IMG/VR virus record: IMGVR_UViG_3300025162_000040
Span: 1 to 64,000 of that record
Strand: one strand, 5' to 3'
Length of the DNA stretch: 64,000 nucleotides
Source of the DNA: a virus
This document shows positions 30,117-54,646 of this stretch, piece by piece. A model generated the notes under the pieces. That model saw only the letters and a program-made list of their open reading frames with translations, was not told the DNA's origin and did not search any database. Position 1 is the first letter of the stretch; every line of letters begins with the position of its first letter. Both the position numbers and the translations under genes were made by a program.

Positions 30117-30668
30117 ATGAGTACTATACCATGCAAAGTGCCAAACTGTGAGAAAGAAGCTGCAAGCAAAAGAAGTGGCCTATGTAACGCGCATTATTTT
30201 AGATTGCGTCGCCATGGATCCTATGAGCTACCAATGACCCGGCGAGAAAAACTCATTAAAGAAGGAAAGTCATATTGTCCAAAGTGTCATGAGACAAAAC
30301 CTCTAGATGAGTTTGGTAAAGACATACACACGGCTTTCGGAGTGGCGTGCTACTGTAAAGGCTGCTCTAACAAGAAGGGAAAAGACAGGTACAAAAATAA
30401 CAAGAGAAAACACCAAGACTACCATCGAAAAAAAGAATTTGGCGTTACTTCAGAGTGGTACGACACAATGTTTACAAACCAAGACGGAAAGTGTGCTATC
30501 TGTAGCAAACTTCAGACTCCTGGAAGGCAGCTGTCGGTGGATCATTGCCATATGTCAAGCCAGGTACGCGGGCTCCTATGTGACAAATGCAATTTCATAC
30601 TCGGTCAATGTGGTGACAACATTGAGATCCTCGAGTCTGCTATACAGTATCTCAAATGCTACCGGTAG
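30117..30668 (+). CDS. HNH (endonuclease VII-type) homing endonuclease
   Basis: The 183-aa product has an N-terminal zinc knuckle (CKVPNCEKEAASKRSGLCNA), a second (CPKCHETKPLDEFGK, CYCKGC), and a C-terminal nuclease: CAICSKLQ, LSVDHCHM, RGLLCDKCNFILG. This is the phage endonuclease VII-like HNH class. AGGAGG precedes the ATG. A free-standing mobile gene with its own consensus promoter. Confidence 0.92.
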   Translation: MSTIPCKVPNCEKEAASKRSGLCNAHYFRLRRHGSYELPMTRREKLIKEGKSYCPKCHETKPLDEFGKDIHTAFGVACYCKGCSNKKGKDRYKNNKRKHQDYHRKKEFGVTSEWYDTMFTNQDGKCAICSKLQTPGRQLSVDHCHMSSQVRGLLCDKCNFILGQCGDNIEILESAIQYLKCYR

Positions 30669-34122: not shown

Positions 34123-34557
34123 ATGCGAGAGTACAATAGACAGCGCCGCAAATTGCCGGAGGTAAAAGAGCGCGAAAGACAGTATCAGAGGACTGATAGA
34201 GTCAAAGAGTTGAGGAGAAAATACTATAGTTCTCCGGAGTGTAAGGAACTTAGGCGTCAATACCGTAAGTCGCTTAAAGGAGCCGAATCAAAACGAAGAG
34301 AAGCTCTTAAGTATAACTATGGTATAGGTTTAGAAGAGTATGATAGGCTGTTTGATAAACAGCGTGGTAGATGTGCTATATGTTTTGAAACATGCCCAGG
34401 AAAAAAACGGCTTAGCGTTGATCACAACCATACTACTGGAGCTATCAGGGGCTTACTATGCGCTCGGTGCAACTTTATGCTAGGGTACAGCGGCGACTCT
34501 ATTTTAGTTTTACACGAAGCGGTACGTTACTTGGAGGCATCTAATGAAAAAGAATAA
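34123..34557 (+). CDS. HNH (endonuclease VII-type) homing endonuclease
   Basis: A very basic N-terminal helix region is followed by CAICFETC, LSVDHNHTTG, RGLLCARCNFMLGYSGDS. It is the same class as the 30117 gene but lacks the N-terminal zinc knuckles. No good ribosome site is seen, and upstream an in-frame stop excludes a longer start. It is inserted between two ordinary small genes. Confidence 0.88.
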   Translation: MREYNRQRRKLPEVKERERQYQRTDRVKELRRKYYSSPECKELRRQYRKSLKGAESKRREALKYNYGIGLEEYDRLFDKQRGRCAICFETCPGKKRLSVDHNHTTGAIRGLLCARCNFMLGYSGDSILVLHEAVRYLEASNEKE

Positions 34558-45175: not shown

Positions 45176-45649
45176 GTGGATTTCAACATGAAGGTCAGAG
45201 TCAATGTTGGTGATAAGGTGTTTGACGGGACTCTCAGAGAGGTCATGCAGATAAACGATGCGACTCTCAACGACGAGTTCATTAAGCAGCCCAGCACTTA
45301 TGCGTACTTTGCGGCTCTCTCCGAATTTGCAGTAGCTGACGTTGAGCAGAAGAAGTTAGCTTTTTCGGTTTTGGAGGCGAACCTTGACGCTCAGAAGAGG
45401 CTCGAGCTAAAGGAGACTAAGGTCACTGAGGCTGTTATTAAGTCCGCCATTGTACGAGATAAGAGGTACCAGATGATGGCAGAAGAGCTCATTGAAGCAG
45501 AGCGCCAGCTCGGGATCCTCAAGTCTTTTGTTAAGGCGTTGGAGCAACGGAAGGATATGCTGATTCAACTCGGAGCTTCTAAACGCCAGGAGATTAGCTT
45601 ACATGATTTCGGGATCAATACTGACAAAGTTAGGGCACACAACAATTAA
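45176..45649 (+). CDS. UvsY-like recombination mediator candidate
   Basis: The 157-aa helical product has VTEAVIKSAIVRDKRYQMMA, EELIEAERQLGILKSFVKAL and EQRKDMLIQLGASKRQE, a pattern shared with phage recombination-mediator proteins of UvsY type. Its position before SSB and RecA supports loading of RecA onto SSB-coated DNA. GGGGG precedes a GTG start. Confidence 0.6.
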   Translation: MDFNMKVRVNVGDKVFDGTLREVMQINDATLNDEFIKQPSTYAYFAALSEFAVADVEQKKLAFSVLEANLDAQKRLELKETKVTEAVIKSAIVRDKRYQMMAEELIEAERQLGILKSFVKALEQRKDMLIQLGASKRQEISLHDFGINTDKVRAHNN

Positions 45650-45664
45650 ACGGGGGTAATGCAG

Positions 45665-46630
45665 ATGGGCTTAGACATTGTAAAGATGAGAGAGCAGTCA
45701 GAAAAGAAGGCCGGTAAGGAGAACAGGTTTGAGCTGCAGGATGGCGACAACAACATTAGGATTCTGCCTCCTTCACTTGAGTACTTCTCCAGCAACATAC
45801 CGTACTTTGGGTACAAGTACATGATGCACTACCAGCTTGGTGTTGAGGGTAGCAAGACGGCTGAGGTGTGTCCCAAGACTTGGGAGACGGTCACAACCAA
45901 GATACGGTGCCCTATCTGTGAGGTCGCCGCAAAGCTTTGGGCGACAAAAGACCCCGAAGACGAGAAGCTAGCCAGGAAGATCAGCAAGAAGACTCGTTAT
46001 TTGTTTAACGTAGTTGACTTGAACAACAAGGATAAAGGCATCCAGATTATGGAGGCCGGTATTCAGGTCCATACGGATCTTAAGGGGTTTATAGAGAACC
46101 CAAAGTGGGGCGACATTCTCGACTTGGACACTGGTAGGGATGTTGTTATTACAAAAGTAAGTGCCAAGCAATCCCAGAGTGGCTACGCAAGCTACAGCGC
46201 GGCTCCAGACCCGTCAGTGTCTTCGGCACGTGGATATCTTCCGAAGAACTTTAAGGAGGCGATAGAACTTCTTAAAAACGAGGTTCCAAAAGCTAAATCT
46301 TATGAAGAGCTTAAGATTACATTGGAGGGAGGCGAAGGTGCCGTTGATGTTGGTGCTGTACGTGCTGCGGCTGCGGTGGAGAAGCACCCGGCTGATCAGG
46401 AAGAGCCAATGAGGAGACACCAAAAGCTTCCTGTTCCAGTGGCTGAGGTGAAGCATGAAGAGCCTTTGAAGACCCACCAAAAGCTTCCTGTTGTCGAATC
46501 CGTGGAGAGTACTTCGGACGAAGGAGGAGAAACCCCCGAGTGTTTCGGAGAGCTGTACGGACCAAGGCGCCCTGAGTGCGTTCCGTGCACATTCAAGGCA
46601 TCGTGCAGGGACAAGTTTTTGAATATGTAG
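45665..46630 (+). CDS. Single-stranded DNA-binding protein, gp32-like
   Basis: The 321-aa product has LQDGDNNIRILPPS, a zinc segment (VCPKTWETVTTKIRCPICEV, with Cys spacing like T4 gp32), an OB-type core and an acidic Pro-rich tail. The tail carries two copies of a motif, EEPMRRHQKLPV and EEPLKTHQKLPV, also found at the start of the RecA protein. A final CFGELYGPRRPECVPCTFKA cluster may bind zinc. I chose the second ATG (45665), 8 bases after GGGGG. Confidence 0.85.
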   Translation: MGLDIVKMREQSEKKAGKENRFELQDGDNNIRILPPSLEYFSSNIPYFGYKYMMHYQLGVEGSKTAEVCPKTWETVTTKIRCPICEVAAKLWATKDPEDEKLARKISKKTRYLFNVVDLNNKDKGIQIMEAGIQVHTDLKGFIENPKWGDILDLDTGRDVVITKVSAKQSQSGYASYSAAPDPSVSSARGYLPKNFKEAIELLKNEVPKAKSYEELKITLEGGEGAVDVGAVRAAAAVEKHPADQEEPMRRHQKLPVPVAEVKHEEPLKTHQKLPVVESVESTSDEGGETPECFGELYGPRRPECVPCTFKASCRDKFLNM

Positions 46631-46646
46631 TTTGGTGCTGGCAGTT

Positions 46647-46670
46647 GGGCGGGGGTAGCTATCCCCGCCC
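46647..46670 (+). terminator. GC-rich hairpin between SSB and RecA genes
   Basis: GGGCGGGG pairs with CCCCGCCC around an 8-base loop. No T-run follows, so it may attenuate or stabilise the upstream RNA rather than terminate. Confidence 0.4.
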
Positions 46671-46703
46671 TAACCATTCAATAAACGTAATCAAGGAGAT
46701 ACA

Positions 46704-47813
46704 ATGACACAGGTCGAAGAGCCTTTGAAGAGACATCCGAAGCTGCCGGTGGTCGATAAAGGTGTGAAAGGCATTGATCCGAAGTTCATATCAAGCCTTA
46801 TTAGCAAAGTAGAGGGGGTCGCGTCAGGCACAGAGTCTAAGGTAGATTTCTGGCTTGACTCCGGAAACTACGCTCTCAACAAAGTAATTTCAGGCGACTA
46901 CACTAGAGGGCTCCCTTTCGGGCGCGTTATTGAAGTGTTTGGTGACCCTTCCACAGGTAAGTCGCTTCTCATATACCACTGGATTGCCGCTGTTCAGCAG
47001 ATGGGTGGCATTGCCATTTTGGACGATACCGAAGACGCTTACACGGAGCAGTTTGGGGCCATGCTCGGCATTGACAGCAGTGCGCTCATTCTTCTCAGCT
47101 CGCTTACAGTTGAGGAACACTTTGAGAAGGTTTTTCTTGGGTGGAAGGACTCTAACGGAAAGAGCAAGCCGGGGCTCGTGGATCTTATTTGGGAGAAGGA
47201 TACTGAGTGCCCTATTTTGATCGCTCTGGACAGCCTTGCGCTGTTGTCTACGAGGCACGAGCAGGAGGTGATGCTAGAGAAGCCCGATATGACGAAGGCT
47301 AAGCAAATACGGGCAGCTCTAAGGAACTCTGCTAGGTACATGAAGAAGGGCAATATCATGCACGTAGTGGCCAACCACGTTACCACCAAGATTGGTGTAA
47401 TGTTCGGCAACCCCAAGACAACTCCTGGAGGCTCTGGTATGCCTTTTTCAGCGTCTGTGAGGCTTGAGCTGAACTATTCCGGAAAGATCAAGGATGTGGA
47501 CAACCCGGACCGTGTTGTCGGCGTAATGTCAACAGCAAAGGGGTCCAAGAACCGCATCGCCATGCCGTTTCAGGAGTCTTGCTTGGATATCTATTTCAAT
47601 AAGGGTGTGGATCCGTTCAGCGGTCTCTTGGAAAACATGATTACGAATGGGATAGCTAAGGACGGTGAGAAGCGTGGTTACGTCGAGATCGCCGGAGAGC
47701 AGGTCCGGAAGAGTGAGTTTAAGGAGTATGTAAAGAAGAACCTGGACAGGCTTAGTTCTCTGTCTACTGTGGCGCCTGTAGTGGAAAAGGTCGAGGAAGA
47801 GGAAAAAGATTAA
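46704..47813 (+). CDS. RecA/UvsX-like recombinase
   Basis: The 369-aa product has FGDPSTGKSLL (Walker A, residues about 80-87), ILDDTEDAY, CPILIALDSLALLS (Walker B) and the L2-type region GGSGMPFSASVRLEL. It should form filaments on ssDNA. Its N-terminus starts with the shared motif EEPLKRHPKLPV (residues 5-16), the same type as in the SSB tail. Confidence 0.93.
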   Translation: MTQVEEPLKRHPKLPVVDKGVKGIDPKFISSLISKVEGVASGTESKVDFWLDSGNYALNKVISGDYTRGLPFGRVIEVFGDPSTGKSLLIYHWIAAVQQMGGIAILDDTEDAYTEQFGAMLGIDSSALILLSSLTVEEHFEKVFLGWKDSNGKSKPGLVDLIWEKDTECPILIALDSLALLSTRHEQEVMLEKPDMTKAKQIRAALRNSARYMKKGNIMHVVANHVTTKIGVMFGNPKTTPGGSGMPFSASVRLELNYSGKIKDVDNPDRVVGVMSTAKGSKNRIAMPFQESCLDIYFNKGVDPFSGLLENMITNGIAKDGEKRGYVEIAGEQVRKSEFKEYVKKNLDRLSSLSTVAPVVEKVEEEEKD

Positions 47814-47831
47814 AAATATTTAAAAAGATCC

Positions 47832-47859
47832 TTGACTTTTTTGGTTTTTATGCTAGCAT
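47832..47859 (+). promoter_or_regulatory. Host-type sigma-70 promoter
   Basis: TTGACT (47832-47837), 16 bases ending TGC, TAGCAT (47854-47859). The -10 is of the extended type. A 126-base leader without a gene follows, AT-rich with no strong structure that I can see, before the ATG at 47986. Confidence 0.72.
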
Positions 47860-47985
47860 GACGCAATTCTCATAGCACAACTTTGATCATTCAGCAGCAA
47901 AGAAGGGGGGCGAACTCTTTTTAGTTTCTTTAGGACTAGATGTTAGTATATTCTTATTATAGGTTTTTAATTCGCGAGTAGAATA

Positions 47986-48756
47986 ATGTCAATATCGTAC
48001 CCCCCAGATTACGAAGATACTGACCAGATAGACGGACTCATGCCGGAGTCTGCCGGCAATGCAACAATCCCGCACGTAGATGAAAAAAAGTTCCCGCTAA
48101 CAAAGCAGTGGCTGCAGCTAATCGTAAGATACTCCTTCGTGTACCACCGATCCGTAATTGACTTTCTCCAAGAGGCCTACATTCTTGAGTGGGATATGAA
48201 AAAAAGAGTGTACGAGTCGCTAGCTCACAAGCAGAACAGTTTTAAAAGGTCTCTATATGCTCTCCTTTATCGCAAGCGGAACGATTGGGAAGGTATTTTG
48301 GAATATTCCTCTGTTGATAAAGATGGAAAGAAATCTGAATACGGGTTTACGTCCGGAAAAAGCTATATCGTTACCGAGACTGAGGACGAGATGGCTGAAA
48401 GACGCGAGCATGGGAGGCTATTAAAAACAAAGCCGTCCAAGGACGCACCCATTCGACGTAAGAAGACCTACCAATCTGACACGATCAGCCTTGACGTTGA
48501 CCTCGTGGATTCGCTTATTCAGATGCGCCCCTTTGATGAGGTGTACTATCAGGATCTAGTGGCACATACAGCTATTCTGTTGGCTCAGAAGAGCTCCCTG
48601 GCAAGGCAAATGTTTTTGGACAGGGTGAACTTGAAGCTCCAGTGGAACGAACTGAGGAATGAAGCACATTACAAGGAAGTAGCACATTACAGTTTTTATA
48701 ACGCCGTTAAATTCATAAAGAGAGTAGTCAGGAAAGAAATGTACTGTTTCGCCTGA
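47986..48756 (+). CDS. Unknown protein, possible sigma-factor-like regulator
   Basis: The 256-aa product has a helical N-terminal part (FPLTKQWLQLIVRYSFVYHR, RSLYALLYRKRNDW) and a C-terminal part (FDEVYYQDLVAHTAILLAQK, then HYSFYNAVKFIKRVVRKEMY) that recalls sigma region 4 of phage late factors. The match is by eye only. It has its own host-type promoter. Confidence 0.5.
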   Translation: MSISYPPDYEDTDQIDGLMPESAGNATIPHVDEKKFPLTKQWLQLIVRYSFVYHRSVIDFLQEAYILEWDMKKRVYESLAHKQNSFKRSLYALLYRKRNDWEGILEYSSVDKDGKKSEYGFTSGKSYIVTETEDEMAERREHGRLLKTKPSKDAPIRRKKTYQSDTISLDVDLVDSLIQMRPFDEVYYQDLVAHTAILLAQKSSLARQMFLDRVNLKLQWNELRNEAHYKEVAHYSFYNAVKFIKRVVRKEMYCFA

Positions 48757-48773
48757 CGATTCCGGAGGACGCT

Positions 48774-51719
48774 GTGCGTTTTGGTCTTGTATCGGACACC
48801 CATTTTCAGAATTGGCAAGCGTTCGGCCAATGTCACGAGAACAGGATCTCAAAGAGACTCTTAAAGCAGCGGGATAATTTTCTTCAGGCAGTATCTGTTT
48901 TTAAGAGAGAGCGGGTCGATTGTATTATTCATGGTGGCGACTGGGGGCATTCAGTCGGCACTATTAGTAACGAGGTTCTCAACCTAAGCAAGGACCTTCT
49001 TGGAAGTTTTGAAACACCGATACTCTTTGTCTGCGGCAATCACGACACACCTATAAGAACTGCACCAAAAGATCACCACCTGCTCACGAACATACTTGAA
49101 GGGTTCCGGGCAACATTTCCACTCGACTTCCCTAATGCAGAATGTCTCGGTAAGGGAAAGCTGTGTCTGATCAATTTTCAGGACGAGATCGATTACGAGA
49201 AGGTCAAGGGGTATGATCTAGTTGTTGTTCATAAGACTCCAGTCGGCGCTCAGTTGGGTAATTACACCTTTGGCGAGGGAACTAACTGGCGCCGGCTGGC
49301 CTCCCAAAATAAATTTGTAGCGTTTGGGCATATCCACCAAATGCAGAAGCTAAGCGAGAACTGCTTCATCATTGGAGCTCCGATGCCATTTACATTCGGA
49401 GATGACGGGCGCCGCGGGGTATGGACGGTCGACACGGACGAGGGCACCTGCACCTTCCACAAGCTTGATTACCCAGAGTTCATCACTGTCAACAGCCCTG
49501 AAGACATTAAGGATGATGGGAACTACTACAAGTTGTTCGGAACCAGACTAAAGATAGAAAACGAGAACGTGATATCTGTGGTTACTCCAGACACATTCAA
49601 GGAGCGGATCAAGGCGCAGGACTTTCATGGGATAGTGCACGAGTGGATAGAGCTCAACGGAAAAGACGACACATATTTTGATCTTGTTAAGGACATCTTG
49701 GATGAGAAGATGTCGTTTGTGAAGAGCTTTTACAAGGGAAGGCTGGCTAAGGTTTCCATTCAAGATTTTTTGTCCATTCAGTCCGCGGAGTACAAGGTTC
49801 CGGAGAGTGGCTTCACGCTCATTACTGGAGAGTCGGATGGGTTTAGCAGTAATGGGAGTGGCAAGAGCTCCATAATAGGCGAGTCAATATGCTGGGCCCT
49901 ATTTGGGGAGACCACAAAGGGACTTACTGGAGATGATGTTATACGAAATGGTCAGAACGACTGCTCTGTTGAACTTCTTCTTGACGCTGGAGGTTCAAAT
50001 GTGATCGTTAAGAGAAGTCGCAAGAGCGGTTTGTCAGTCATGGTTATCGAGAATGGTCAGGCGAAGCTCCCTACCGAGGGGATGCTCCAGAAGCAGGCTC
50101 AGGAGCTACTGGAGGGCATTCTTGGGTTCGATAAGAGCGTGTTCCTGTCGTCAGTATACTTTAGCCAGGAAAATCTCCTTATGATGGCTAAGATGTCTGA
50201 CACCGAGAAGACGAGCATGATAACGGACCTTCTTGGGTTTGATCAGTATGACGACTTGCAGGAGCTGGTTCTTCAGAAGACGACCAAGATAAGCGGGGAC
50301 ATATTAAAGGACGAGCGGGCTAAGACTGAGTCCGAGAAGGACCTTGCCGTAGCCCGGGCAGTTCTTGATGGGGTTCTGAGGGCTATCGAAGAAAAGGCGC
50401 ACAAAGTTAAGGAGTGCCTGGCAGCGATAGATACACACAAAGACGGGATCGCTGAGCTTAAGTCTAACGGGGTTGTCAAGCTTTCCTTTGAGAAGGTTGA
50501 TTACGACTCAAAGATACGAGAGACAGAGGAGGCTAAGGAAACTATCCACAAGAAGCTTGAGGCTATCCGTGAGACGGTTGACTTAGTTCATAAGGAGCAG
50601 GGGGACTGCTCTGCTAAAATGGTTGTTTTGAAGGTGGAGCTCGACTCTTTGAAAGCGTCTAGGAAGAAGATTGAGAGCGAGATAAACGTTCTCAGAGGGG
50701 CACAGGTAGGTGTCCGCTGTGACAAGTGCGGATCCACAGTGTCAGAGGACAGCGTGGACTCTTTTATCAATGACAAGGAGTCCGATCTTGTTCAGATCGA
50801 TGCTGACAGGACTGTTATTGAGGCGGAGTTAAAGGGTAAGGAAGCTGCTTTAAAAGATGTAATGCTTAGGCTAGTTCAGCTTGACGCAAAGGAGGACGGC
50901 TTCAAGGCGCAGGAGTCTGAGATCGGTCCAGAGCTGTCCAGGCTTAACCGCCTAAAGACAGAGCAGCTGTCGAAGCAGCACGAGCTCGAGATGGCACAAG
51001 AACGTATGCGTGGTGAAATTGAGCGACATAAGTCATTTATAGACGAGTATTCGGTACGCGCTGACGGTATCCGCAAGGAGAAGCATTGGCTTACAGTAGA
51101 CAGGGACGATAAAGAAGAGGCCATCAAAATACTTGAAGAAGTTATGGGCAGATTCAGTACGCGTATCAGACAGTCCGAGGAGAAGATCGAGAAGCTTTCT
51201 TTCTGGAAGACAGCCTTCTCACCAAAGGGCATCCGGTCGGTTCTTCTGGACAGGTTCTGCAATGATATTAATGCGACTATTAACGGGTATTTGTCTACGG
51301 TGAGTGGCGGGACCATGAGCATCATGATGACTCCGACTAAGACCACTAAGGCCGGTGAGGAGCGTAACAAGATCGGGATGCTTATTCGTCTTAATGGCAA
51401 CGAGACTAAGTATGAGGCGTTGTCAGGCGGAGAGAAGAGACGCGTTGATGTATCGCTGTGTTTTGGCCTAAATAAGTTCGTGTCGGAGAAGTACCAGGTA
51501 CCATCTGGTATACTTGGAATTGTTATTCTTGATGAGGTGTTTTCGTTTTTGGACAGATCAGGCGAGGAGTCTGTGGCGGATCTACTCTACAGCGAGGGTA
51601 AGAGCCGCAATGTGTTTGTAATAGATCATGCGCTTAATCTTAGTAGCTATGCCGATCAGGTGTGGGTGGTCAAGAAGGAACATGGCATTAGCACGCTGAA
51701 CGTCAGGAGAGATTCATGA
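48774..51719 (+). CDS. Fused SbcD-SbcC (Mre11-Rad50) nuclease-ATPase
   Basis: The 981-aa protein joins two subunits that are usually separate. Residues 1-330 are the Mre11/SbcD nuclease: LVSDTHFQ, HGGDWGHS, VCGNHDTP, VVHKTPVG, AFGHIH. Residues about 330-981 are SbcC/Rad50: NGSGKSSI (Walker A, about 358), long coiled coils, a CDKC zinc hook (about 649), LSGGEKRR (signature, about 883) and VILDEVFSFLD (Walker B, about 917). It should process DNA ends for recombination. GGAGG precedes the GTG. Confidence 0.93.
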   Translation: MRFGLVSDTHFQNWQAFGQCHENRISKRLLKQRDNFLQAVSVFKRERVDCIIHGGDWGHSVGTISNEVLNLSKDLLGSFETPILFVCGNHDTPIRTAPKDHHLLTNILEGFRATFPLDFPNAECLGKGKLCLINFQDEIDYEKVKGYDLVVVHKTPVGAQLGNYTFGEGTNWRRLASQNKFVAFGHIHQMQKLSENCFIIGAPMPFTFGDDGRRGVWTVDTDEGTCTFHKLDYPEFITVNSPEDIKDDGNYYKLFGTRLKIENENVISVVTPDTFKERIKAQDFHGIVHEWIELNGKDDTYFDLVKDILDEKMSFVKSFYKGRLAKVSIQDFLSIQSAEYKVPESGFTLITGESDGFSSNGSGKSSIIGESICWALFGETTKGLTGDDVIRNGQNDCSVELLLDAGGSNVIVKRSRKSGLSVMVIENGQAKLPTEGMLQKQAQELLEGILGFDKSVFLSSVYFSQENLLMMAKMSDTEKTSMITDLLGFDQYDDLQELVLQKTTKISGDILKDERAKTESEKDLAVARAVLDGVLRAIEEKAHKVKECLAAIDTHKDGIAELKSNGVVKLSFEKVDYDSKIRETEEAKETIHKKLEAIRETVDLVHKEQGDCSAKMVVLKVELDSLKASRKKIESEINVLRGAQVGVRCDKCGSTVSEDSVDSFINDKESDLVQIDADRTVIEAELKGKEAALKDVMLRLVQLDAKEDGFKAQESEIGPELSRLNRLKTEQLSKQHELEMAQERMRGEIERHKSFIDEYSVRADGIRKEKHWLTVDRDDKEEAIKILEEVMGRFSTRIRQSEEKIEKLSFWKTAFSPKGIRSVLLDRFCNDINATINGYLSTVSGGTMSIMMTPTKTTKAGEERNKIGMLIRLNGNETKYEALSGGEKRRVDVSLCFGLNKFVSEKYQVPSGILGIVILDEVFSFLDRSGEESVADLLYSEGKSRNVFVIDHALNLSSYADQVWVVKKEHGISTLNVRRDS

Positions 51720-52240
51720 CCATTATCGGGATCGACAATGGAATTTCTGGACAAATTGGTGCTGTGTACGATAACGGCGAGGCACACTTGTGTCGCACTC
51801 CTACTATGAAGCTCCTGCACTATACAAAGCAGAAGCAGTATTTTACACGAATTGACACGCCGGCTCTTGAGGCTGCTTTTACGAAGATACTTGACTATGC
51901 TTTGTCTGTGAACAAGGTTCTTTTGCCGGCTTTTGTGCTTCTGGAGCGGCCCATGGTGAACCCAACACGGTTTAAGGCCACTGAGTCCGCTGTTCGGTCG
52001 TATGAGGCCACTCTGATTGTTATTGAGCGTCTTAAGATTGGGTATCGTGTCGTTGATAGTAAGGAGTGGCAGAAGAAGATGCTTCCGGAAGGGCTCAAGG
52101 GCCCGGAGCTCAAGAAGGCTTCTTTAGCTGTGGGAAAGCGGACGTTTCCGAAGATTGACTTTACGGGGTTCGATGACGCAGATGGGCTTCTACTGGCCGA
52201 GTATGGTAGAAGGTTTGGTGGTGCTCAATGGCTAAAATGA
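51716..52240 (+). CDS. RuvC-like Holliday junction resolvase
   Basis: The 174-aa product has IIGIDNGISG (catalytic Asp), FVLLERPM (Glu) and FDDADGLLLAEY (two Asp), the RuvC-type RNase H fold. It should cut branched DNA before packaging. ATGA overlaps on both sides. Confidence 0.9.
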   Translation: MTIIGIDNGISGQIGAVYDNGEAHLCRTPTMKLLHYTKQKQYFTRIDTPALEAAFTKILDYALSVNKVLLPAFVLLERPMVNPTRFKATESAVRSYEATLIVIERLKIGYRVVDSKEWQKKMLPEGLKGPELKKASLAVGKRTFPKIDFTGFDDADGLLLAEYGRRFGGAQWLK

Positions 52241-52404
52241 GTCACAAGCCGTTTGTTACACAGCTTAGAGAGTGCGCGGATAACGGAACCCGTAAGGAGA
52301 TAAGTAATGTTTACGGGACGTACCCAGAAACTATTTTGCTGTGTACAAAGTATCTAGAGATCTGCAGCAGTAATGTTTGCCGAAAAGATCGGAGGGTAAA
52401 GTGA
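52237..52404 (+). CDS. Unknown small protein, 55 aa
   Basis: The frame MSHKPFVTQLRECADNGTRK has four Cys, two near YLEICSSNVCRK. ATGA and GTGA overlaps join both neighbours. Confidence 0.6.
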   Translation: MSHKPFVTQLRECADNGTRKEISNVYGTYPETILLCTKYLEICSSNVCRKDRRVK

Positions 52405-52634
52405 GCTACAAGAAGGATTTGACGATGCGAATAGTTAGGACTAAGCATATCATTGAATTTTATAACAATACGCGTGCTATGGACTTGATGGCTGATTTGG
52501 CTAACGTTCCAAAGGAAGCACGTTTGGTTGAAGTGTGTGAGGCGTGCAATGATGGCGAGGTTATTATTAAGGGTGCCAGTCGTCCGCATAGCCCCCACAA
52601 GCTTGTATTTGAACTTGAGGAGGAGCAGAAATGA
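52401..52634 (+). CDS. Unknown protein, 77 aa
   Basis: A GTG start follows GGAGGG. VEVCEACNDGEVIIKGASRP includes a CxxC pair. Function is unknown. Confidence 0.65.
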   Translation: MSYKKDLTMRIVRTKHIIEFYNNTRAMDLMADLANVPKEARLVEVCEACNDGEVIIKGASRPHSPHKLVFELEEEQK

Positions 52635-53281
52635 GCACACAAGTTGATTTTGGGTTCTGGGTGTCAATAGTCTCGGACAAGATGGTGGATGGTTGGGTCA
52701 AGAAGAAGTACATACCCAGTAGGGATGTTTTGCTGTTCAGCGAGAACGGGGACGACGGGGAGTTTAAGCACGGTGATATTATTCACAGGCTCTCAATGCG
52801 GGATAACGACGGGAAAGTTTTGCAGGGTGTTGATGATGCTGGAGAGGAGTACTACCTGTCAGAGTGGGTCAGGTCAGAGGATAAGTCTAACGAGCTTAAG
52901 GCGCTCGGGTACAAGTCAGACGACTACGAGCGTCTGGTGATTGACAGCAAAATTTATAACAGGATGCGTGGGCAGGTTGGTAAGTGGTATGACAAGATCT
53001 TTGATGATGTAGAGAAGTGGCTTCGTAAAAGTGGGCTTATGCACATCTCTAAGGGAAGCATTAAGACAGGGTTTTGTGTGGAGAGTAACCCTGATCATGA
53101 GGTCGTTAAGAACTGGGGCGCCCCACTGGCTAAGAAGGAGAACAAGGTTATTCAGATGAAGGAAAAGTTTGGGCGCATTGTGGTGTATTTTATGGGCCTT
53201 ACGGAGGAAGAACGGGAAAAGGTTGATAAGTTCGCCTTAGATGTTGAAGCTAAGTATGACTGCACCTGTGATTTCATATGA
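52631..53281 (+). CDS. Unknown protein, 216 aa
   Basis: The product MSTQVDFGFWVSIVSDKMVD has mixed alpha/beta character and no motif I know. ATGA overlaps on both sides. Confidence 0.7.
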   Translation: MSTQVDFGFWVSIVSDKMVDGWVKKKYIPSRDVLLFSENGDDGEFKHGDIIHRLSMRDNDGKVLQGVDDAGEEYYLSEWVRSEDKSNELKALGYKSDDYERLVIDSKIYNRMRGQVGKWYDKIFDDVEKWLRKSGLMHISKGSIKTGFCVESNPDHEVVKNWGAPLAKKENKVIQMKEKFGRIVVYFMGLTEEEREKVDKFALDVEAKYDCTCDFI

Positions 53282-53454
53282 ACGACTGTGCTGCTGGTCA
53301 TTACATAACCAACGTGGTGGTTACGAGAAACCCGTTGGTATGTTCAGGAGGGTTTGGGCAGCCGCGGTGCATCTACTATCAAATATGCCTTTACCAGAAT
53401 GGATACAAGCTCAGTAAGAACGGCCGCAGGATAAGGGTTAAGCGAAAGGACTAG
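53278..53454 (+). CDS. Unknown basic protein, 58 aa
   Basis: The frame MNDCAAGHYITNVVVTRNPL continues VCSGGFGQPRCIYYQICLYQ, with four Cys, and ends in a basic KNGRRIRVKRKD. Confidence 0.55.
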   Translation: MNDCAAGHYITNVVVTRNPLVCSGGFGQPRCIYYQICLYQNGYKLSKNGRRIRVKRKD

Positions 53455-53456
53455 TT

Positions 53457-53663
53457 ATGTGGATCGTTACTCTTGACGACAGCACTAATGATGAGCAGGT
53501 AGAGGTTATTGCGAGTGATCTCGCGGAGCTTCAGCATATACTCGATTACATTAAGGTTAAGGAAGACAGGTTTGACCTGCTGAACGTTGAGCAGAGATGG
53601 CTGCTTCTTGGTTTTGACGGCTTAAGGGATATGGCCGGTGAATATATCCCAGACAAAATATAA
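53457..53663 (+). CDS. Unknown acidic protein, 68 aa
   Basis: The product MWIVTLDDSTNDEQVEVIAS is acidic and helical. It starts two bases after the upstream stop. Confidence 0.6.
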   Translation: MWIVTLDDSTNDEQVEVIASDLAELQHILDYIKVKEDRFDLLNVEQRWLLLGFDGLRDMAGEYIPDKI

Positions 53664-53676
53664 CGGAGGTTAGAAA

Positions 53677-54126
53677 ATGAAAGTGAAACTAGGAACAATT
53701 AAGGGGGCGCAGTCTGGATTTATCGCCATTATGCAAGCACAGATGCCCATTAAGTTGGCGTATGCGGTTAGTAGGAACTTGAAGAAGATCGCCTCAGAGA
53801 TGGAAGACGTGGAAAAGGTCAGAATGGATCTTATCCGCAAGTATGGTGCTCCTGACGAGAAGAGCGGTGGTATGCAGGTTACGAAAGAAAACATGGAAGT
53901 GTTCGAGAAGGAGTATGGAGACGTTCTTGCAAACGAGGTTGAGCTCGATCTGTGGAAGCTCCCGTTAAGCAAGCTCTCTGACGCTGGCGTTCGTCTTACA
54001 CCCACTCAGATCGTTACTATGGAAGATTTCATTGAGGATGATCTTCCGCCAGATGCCTCTCCAGCTCTCATTGACGATCCGTTGAAGAGATATCCGAAAC
54101 TTCCAGAAGAAACTCCAGGTAAGTAG
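53677..54126 (+). CDS. Phage protein (DUF1617-like) carrying the shared KLP motif
   Basis: The 149-aa product has [35 protein letters not shown] and [13 protein letters not shown], which recall the DUF1617 phage family. Its C-terminal tail holds [12 protein letters not shown], a variant of the EEPLKRHPKLPV motif in SSB and RecA, suggesting it binds the same partner. Confidence 0.7.
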
Positions 54127-54130
54127 CCCC

Positions 54131-54646
54131 ATGATAGTTCAGGATCGCGAGAAGCTTACAATACCATGTAGGGAGACCACTATTGAAGAGTGTAAGTCTC
54201 TTGACGTGTTTTCAAAGCTATCTAGCGAACTAGCGGAGAGCCCTGTTCCAGGAGTAGGGCTCTCCGCGAATCAAATCGGATTGGACGTTAGGGCTTGTGT
54301 TGTGAAACTGGAGCTCGGCTTATTTGTCAACATGGTCAATCCGAAGATAGAGGCAACCCATTTTCCGACTGTTAGTGAAAACGAAGGTTGCTTGAGCTTC
54401 CCCGGAGTCCGTTTGAGCACGGACCGGTACATGCAAGTCACATGTTCGTGGCTTGACTTTGATAGTGGTGAGAGCCGTCGTGCAATCTTTTACGGCATGG
54501 AGGCTTTTATACTACAGCACGAATGTGACCATCTTGACGGGGTGACACTCTTTGACAGAGCTTCGAAGCCTGCTTACAAGGTTGGACGTAATGATCTTTG
54601 TCCATGTGGTTCTGGTAAAAAACACAAAAAGTGCTGCCTAAAATAA
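54131..54646 (+). CDS. def: Peptide deformylase with C-terminal SEC-C zinc motif
   Basis: The 171-aa product has all three deformylase motifs: GVGLSANQ (residues 41-48), EGCLSFPG (85-92) and [10 protein letters not shown] (128-137, metal-binding HExxH). Residues 152-169 add [18 protein letters not shown], a SEC-C zinc motif that in SecA binds SecB and ribosomes. The fusion could place the enzyme at nascent chains. It removes the formyl group from new proteins. Confidence 0.95.

Follow-up and report, generated by a model that had tools for sequence, protein, structure and literature searches.

A lineage-specific 12-residue peptide in the single-stranded DNA-binding protein, RecA and a third protein of a phage: a putative docking motif

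Why should three otherwise unrelated proteins of one phage carry the same short peptide? The question was raised by the first 64,000 bases (the window, that is, the whole stretch of DNA analyzed) of the 83,587-base record IMGVR_UViG_3300025162_000040, the rest of which is referred to as locus L002. An initial annotation had noticed the peptide twice in the tail of the single-stranded DNA-binding protein (SSB), once where RecA begins and once in the tail of a protein encoded from position 53677 (here p53677), and all four copies were found where it had placed them. These 12-residue copies have the pattern [ED][ED]P[LM][KR]x[HY][PQ]KLP (here, the KLPV motif), are of mixed charge and lie in frame within real genes, as follows:

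45659..46630, + strand: gp32-like SSB, 323 amino acids (aa), with a Cys-rich C-terminal end (PF08804, E 1.7e-12; phrog_1192; alignment A6)
46400-46435, + strand: motif copy 1, SSB linker, EEPMRRHQKLPV, SSB residues 248-259
46457-46492, + strand: motif copy 2, SSB linker, EEPLKTHQKLPV, SSB residues 267-278, starting 19 residues past the start of copy 1
46693-46700, + strand: Shine-Dalgarno-like AAGGAGAT, 5' of the recA start (46704), read from the sequence
46704..47813, + strand: RecA/UvsX-type recombinase, 369 aa (PF00154, E 2e-37; phrog_97)
46707..46772, + strand: RecA N-terminal extension of ~20 residues (residues 2-23), missing from 17/17 other RecA proteins in alignment A3
46716-46751, + strand: motif copy 3, RecA N-terminus, EEPLKRHPKLPV, RecA residues 5-16
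53677..54126, + strand: p53677, 149 aa, a phrog_1401-type helical protein of unknown function (phrog_1401, E 2.7e-11; AlphaFold2 model)
54040..54123, + strand: p53677 C-terminal tail, about residues 122-149, missing from aligned homologues
54073-54108, + strand: motif copy 4, p53677 C-terminal tail, residues 133-144

The gp32-like domain match covers SSB residues 27-198, and copy 2 ends 45 residues short of the SSB C-terminus (CRDKFLNM), both SSB copies thus being internal. The RecA copy is very probably translated, since the Shine-Dalgarno-like sequence precedes the recA start. A six-frame search of the window and the remainder of the 83.6-kb record gave no fifth copy; the search of the full genome and its relatives that had been proposed with the initial annotation returned the four copies, none beyond them and none in relatives.

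The peptide in the three proteins is real, non-random and lineage-specific. A crude call of open reading frames with a minimum length of 45 aa gave 128 frames totalling 25,140 residues, not all of which will be genes, and in this proteome the best ungapped 12-mers (BLOSUM62) scored 53 each for SSB-SSB, SSB-RecA and RecA-p53677, the highest score per proteome in 39 residue-shuffled proteomes being 40-49. When a profile of the four copies was used, the copies scored 35-41 and the next site in the proteome at most 8.6. A strict regular expression, post hoc because it was derived from the copies, would be expected 2.3e-7 times per proteome. Other 12-mer pairs at or above the same level came from internal repeats of the portal protein 70502 and of the protein 30797, from similar proteins at 78-83 kb, from a second motif (VFKAA, see below) and from two Endonuclease VII-like proteins.

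Apart from the motif, the carrier proteins are unrelated, as had been claimed at the outset, and the similarity has sharp boundaries. DNA identity was 23-31 of 36 inside the motif vs 7-13 of 36 directly up- and downstream, in all six pairs and on both sides. The two SSB copies used the same codon at 8/9 shared residues (3.9 expected, P=0.004), which is consistent with a duplication. For the other five pairs the number of identical codons was not above the expectation from codon usage (P 0.16-0.49), and hence nothing indicates that the DNA was copied recently; since the residues nevertheless agree, selection on the peptide is pointed to, that is, a similarity across proteins that would be carried by the peptide and not by the DNA. 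These results bear on an unlikely explanation, in which the peptide is functionless and its 36-base coding segment reached tolerant places through a small DNA-level element or through short duplications that recurred. The location of all copies in linkers or ends, the duplication-like SSB pair, the in-frame insert of RecA relative to its nearest relative and the presence of a second dispersed coding motif in the same phage would all suit it, but the codon result between proteins does not, and a search of the record gave no further DNA copies of the motif outside genes or in other frames. A DNA element as the carrier was rejected, as no copies lie outside the genes.

The RecA and p53677 copies are predicted to lie in disordered ends. 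For RecA, AlphaFold2 gave a model from an 18-sequence alignment with a mean predicted local distance difference test score (pLDDT) of 81.9; residues 1-20 averaged ~40, and the motif copy was upstream of the conserved N-terminal helix (residues 26-35). In the model of p53677 (3 sequences; mean pLDDT 81.3), residues 128-140 and 147-149 were below 50. Built from few sequences, these models are weak evidence of disorder, yet they agree with the alignments: the p53677 homologue of locus L080 (33-34% identical) ends before the tail, and likewise those of L014, L180 and L181.

The position of the RecA copy also bears on a second alternative, to which little credence is given, namely that SSB and p53677 mimic the N-terminal peptide of RecA itself and that the motif binds, recruits or regulates RecA, as BRC repeats do with Rad51. 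With one copy in RecA and two in SSB, such binding would permit a direct SSB-to-RecA handover without an extra partner. Nevertheless, the RecA copy precedes the conserved helix and lies in the extension; because the 17 other aligned RecA proteins lack this extension, the copy is not the polymerisation segment. In the known case of the BRC repeats of BRCA2 and the FxxA motif of Rad51, a second protein likewise repeats a segment of the recombinase; the difference is that the recombinase copy here is outside the conserved fold and is not its own oligomerisation segment.

Locus searches with single sequences yielded almost no relatives, a contig search of genomes yielded 3 distant ones, and the relatives used came from alignment-based searches. 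The nearest was L079, a 5.8-kb contig, whose RecA has an identity of 72% across the alignment and of 74% within the matched part, and whose SSB is 54% identical. Its RecA starts MMPIDAKY, i.e., downstream of the insert, window residues 2-23 forming an in-frame extension, and its SSB linker is an EEP-rich sequence with no KLP motif. Among the SSB-RecA pairs of 102 loci (101 besides the window, some of them near-identical contigs), a high-scoring shared 12-mer was found in the window only, with a score of 53 vs at most 40 elsewhere among the best 25 of the 102 pairs by excess. The degenerate DNA pattern of the motif was found in 0/26 related records. When the open frames of 182 loci (185 minus L001, L002 and L006; several overlap) were scanned with the motif profile, the maximum was 21.9, in L004, and was taken as a chance match. 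The SSB tail (52 aa) matched 5 records at E 5-9, each below 50% identity and regarded as chance, and the RecA N-terminus matched 0 of 50,697 phage records. Two matches of the DNA pattern in IMG/VR did not look real: one (DEPFKSHPKF) has Phe for Leu and belongs to an open frame of 101 codons, and the second falls within a short stop-to-stop frame. As the motif was missing from every relative examined, it is, on these sequence comparisons, a lineage-specific addition to three proteins and not a conserved element.

The most economical reading of the motif is docking: the 12-residue segment would be a lineage-specific putative docking motif in disordered protein ends, tying SSB, RecA and p53677 to one partner, a proposal that we regard as evenly poised between right and wrong. 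SSB (two copies per subunit), RecA (one) and p53677 would bind the same pocket of this partner. Since SSB and RecA form arrays on single-stranded DNA (ssDNA), which they coat in turn, rows of the motif may be presented there, and a multivalent partner could hold SSB and RecA together while RecA replaces SSB. We infer binding as such, a common partner and a role in SSB-RecA exchange. In favor of docking are the excess over chance, the sharp boundaries, the agreement at the peptide level, the disorder, the shared ssDNA substrate of SSB and RecA and the recurring gene order. As in short linear motifs generally, a short segment is common to unrelated proteins and lies in segments that are disordered in the RecA and p53677 models. 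The initial idea of a short linear motif docking all three proteins on a common recombination partner was partly supported, namely as regards the disordered segments of unrelated proteins and the retention of residues rather than codons, its common partner being inferred.

Several observations weigh against this docking proposal. The initial annotation had named in advance the absence of the motif from orthologues as the finding that would count against it, and conservation in orthologues, usual but not obligatory for short linear docking motifs, was rejected here. The SSB and RecA of L079 are without the motif, although the UvsY-like protein of that contig, a candidate partner treated below, is 73% identical to that of the window. 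The disordered context of the SSB copies was read from alignment gaps only, and the codon test, with only 12 residues or codons, has weak power. Finally, the p53677 family, of unknown function, is not known to take part in recombination, and in L181-L185 its members lie beside a tail-sheath-like gene (identified by eye).

The UvsY-like recombination mediator, which does not carry the motif itself, is encoded just upstream of SSB:

45176..45649, + strand: UvsY-like recombination mediator, with orthologues annotated UvsY-like in the Enterococcus phages iF6, Porthos and ZJGS3

No Pfam match was obtained for this protein. Its profile aligned with that of seven T4-type UvsY proteins (hhalign, A5 vs A7) over 113 columns with a probability of 80.7% and an E-value of 1.3e-5, which supported the UvsY-like label it had been given; the probability against a single T4 UvsY sequence was 0.2%, and a comparison of the UvsY-like profile with the PDB, at an E-value limit of 10, gave 2 irrelevant matches, neither a UvsY. 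T4 UvsY is described as binding gp32-ssDNA complexes, weakening them and helping UvsX to displace gp32 (PMC3016280), and for this reason the mediator is the natural guess for a partner. It is the likeliest single candidate in our judgement, a tentative one that we would sooner expect to be wrong than right; the partner could equally be some other protein of the phage or one of the host. Since L079 keeps its mediator without the motif, any pocket on the UvsY-like protein would need to have arisen newly. This phage shares the gene order DNA polymerase A, UvsY-like protein, SSB and RecA with the spounaviruses (L009, in which the UvsY-like gene is annotated as hypothetical), many IMG/VR contigs and the related Enterococcus phage iF6. 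Additionally, the gene immediately preceding that of the UvsY-like protein in L014 encodes a distant p53677 homologue (profile probability 56.6%, E 1.1e-4).

The p53677 model had 133 weak matches in the PDB, 0 with E<=0.001, and 22 matches with E<=0.001 in BFVD (Foldseek), all uncharacterised where named. A phrog_1401 search of 20 related records gave 0 matches, and a sequence search gave matches in 3/20, one of which (G033, the record of L100, in a 2333-residue open frame) is probably spurious. That p53677 is not known as a recombination protein would fit a further alternative, also improbable, in which the motif would serve as an address or as a signal for processing or degradation, for example by a protease of the host or for delivery to a replication compartment, and not as a recombination docking site. 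Protein ends and linkers are typical places for such signals, but no known signal that matches the motif was identified.

A literature search gave no description of this motif, its coverage of subscription papers being limited. The initial annotation had compared its role with that of the T4 LAST motif, a Lys/Arg-Ser/Thr motif of gp32 (KRKST/KRKTS) that is associated with the N-domain and the ssDNA trough and with gp32-gp32 contact (PMC12893549). Both are short motifs in a phage SSB, LAST acting in replication and recombination. However, the (Lys/Arg)3(Ser/Thr)2 arrangement of LAST is absent here, the copies having no three consecutive K/R, no S and a single T in one copy, and they lie at SSB 248-278, past the gp32-like domain and not in the N-domain or trough. 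The comparison fails, as LAST serves contact between gp32 molecules and is not a docking tag common to several proteins. In the E. coli SSB-Ct, genome-maintenance partners are recruited by a short peptide of the disordered tail of SSB (PMC10018359). This interaction hub is a likeness, but the SSB-Ct is the acidic extreme C-terminus, and the copies here are internal, of mixed charge and doubled, and RecA and a third protein carry the peptide as well. The PIP-box, carried by many unrelated proteins for one PCNA pocket (PMC6881253), likewise is a short motif common to unrelated proteins; its sequence is another one, and here there are three proteins of one phage and a receptor that is postulated.

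A second motif, VF[KR]AAxxE[ED] with a basic residue after it (VFKAAxPEE), recurs at 11 sites of this phage in open frames that differ in other respects, often near the N-terminus and after MSLxKDxxxLKKMFEA:

Window: 23734, 56661
L002: 13532, 14015, 14297, 16038, 16460, 16800, 18060, 18578, 19222

It was present in none of the other loci compared, and a search of 50,697 phage records with a 172-aa carrier gave 0 matches up to an E-value of 10. A relationship between the KLPV and VFKAA motifs was tried and was not convincing, 21/500 permutations reaching the observed score. It is conceivable, though very unlikely, that private peptide address labels sort the proteins of this phage, EEPLKRHPKLPV bringing the recombination proteins that coat ssDNA to a single hub and VFKAAxPEExxxR marking another set, both labels being lineage-born and movable between unrelated proteins.

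Other features of the record were also noted. The SSB-recA gap contains a strong G+C hairpin, GGGCGGGG/CCCCGCCC (46647-46670), without a T run (82-base stretch, z -1.93), and a promoter and terminator scan of 45100-48000 gave a number of sites not above that in shuffles. A single 981-aa protein with fused SbcD-like and SbcC-like parts (48774-51719) has near full-length matches in L080, L081 and L082. Directly after p53677 lies a peptide deformylase (54131-54646) with a Cys-rich end that is SEC-C-like by eye. Adjoining GroES and GroEL homologues were found at 57304-57606 and 57821-59449, and a further GroES-like protein, by eye, with a Cys-rich N-terminal part and no Pfam or PHROG match, at 55907-56320. 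The two Endonuclease VII-like proteins are encoded at 30117-30668 and 34123-34557. In L002 (6502-12621), a 2039-aa T4-like portal protein (PF07230) is apparently split by several inteins; 4 of its stretches match Intein_splicing and 3 match HNH_3.

Should the peptide prove to be a docking tag, SSB and the recombinase, competitors for the same DNA, would share one label, which would offer a handle on the handover of ssDNA in this phage. The p53677 fold, from a family of unknown function, would likewise be placed in the SSB/recombinase pathway. Furthermore, because the tag seems to have been added to its carriers only after the split from a relative with a 72-74% identical RecA, the finding would show how fast an interaction network can be rewired.

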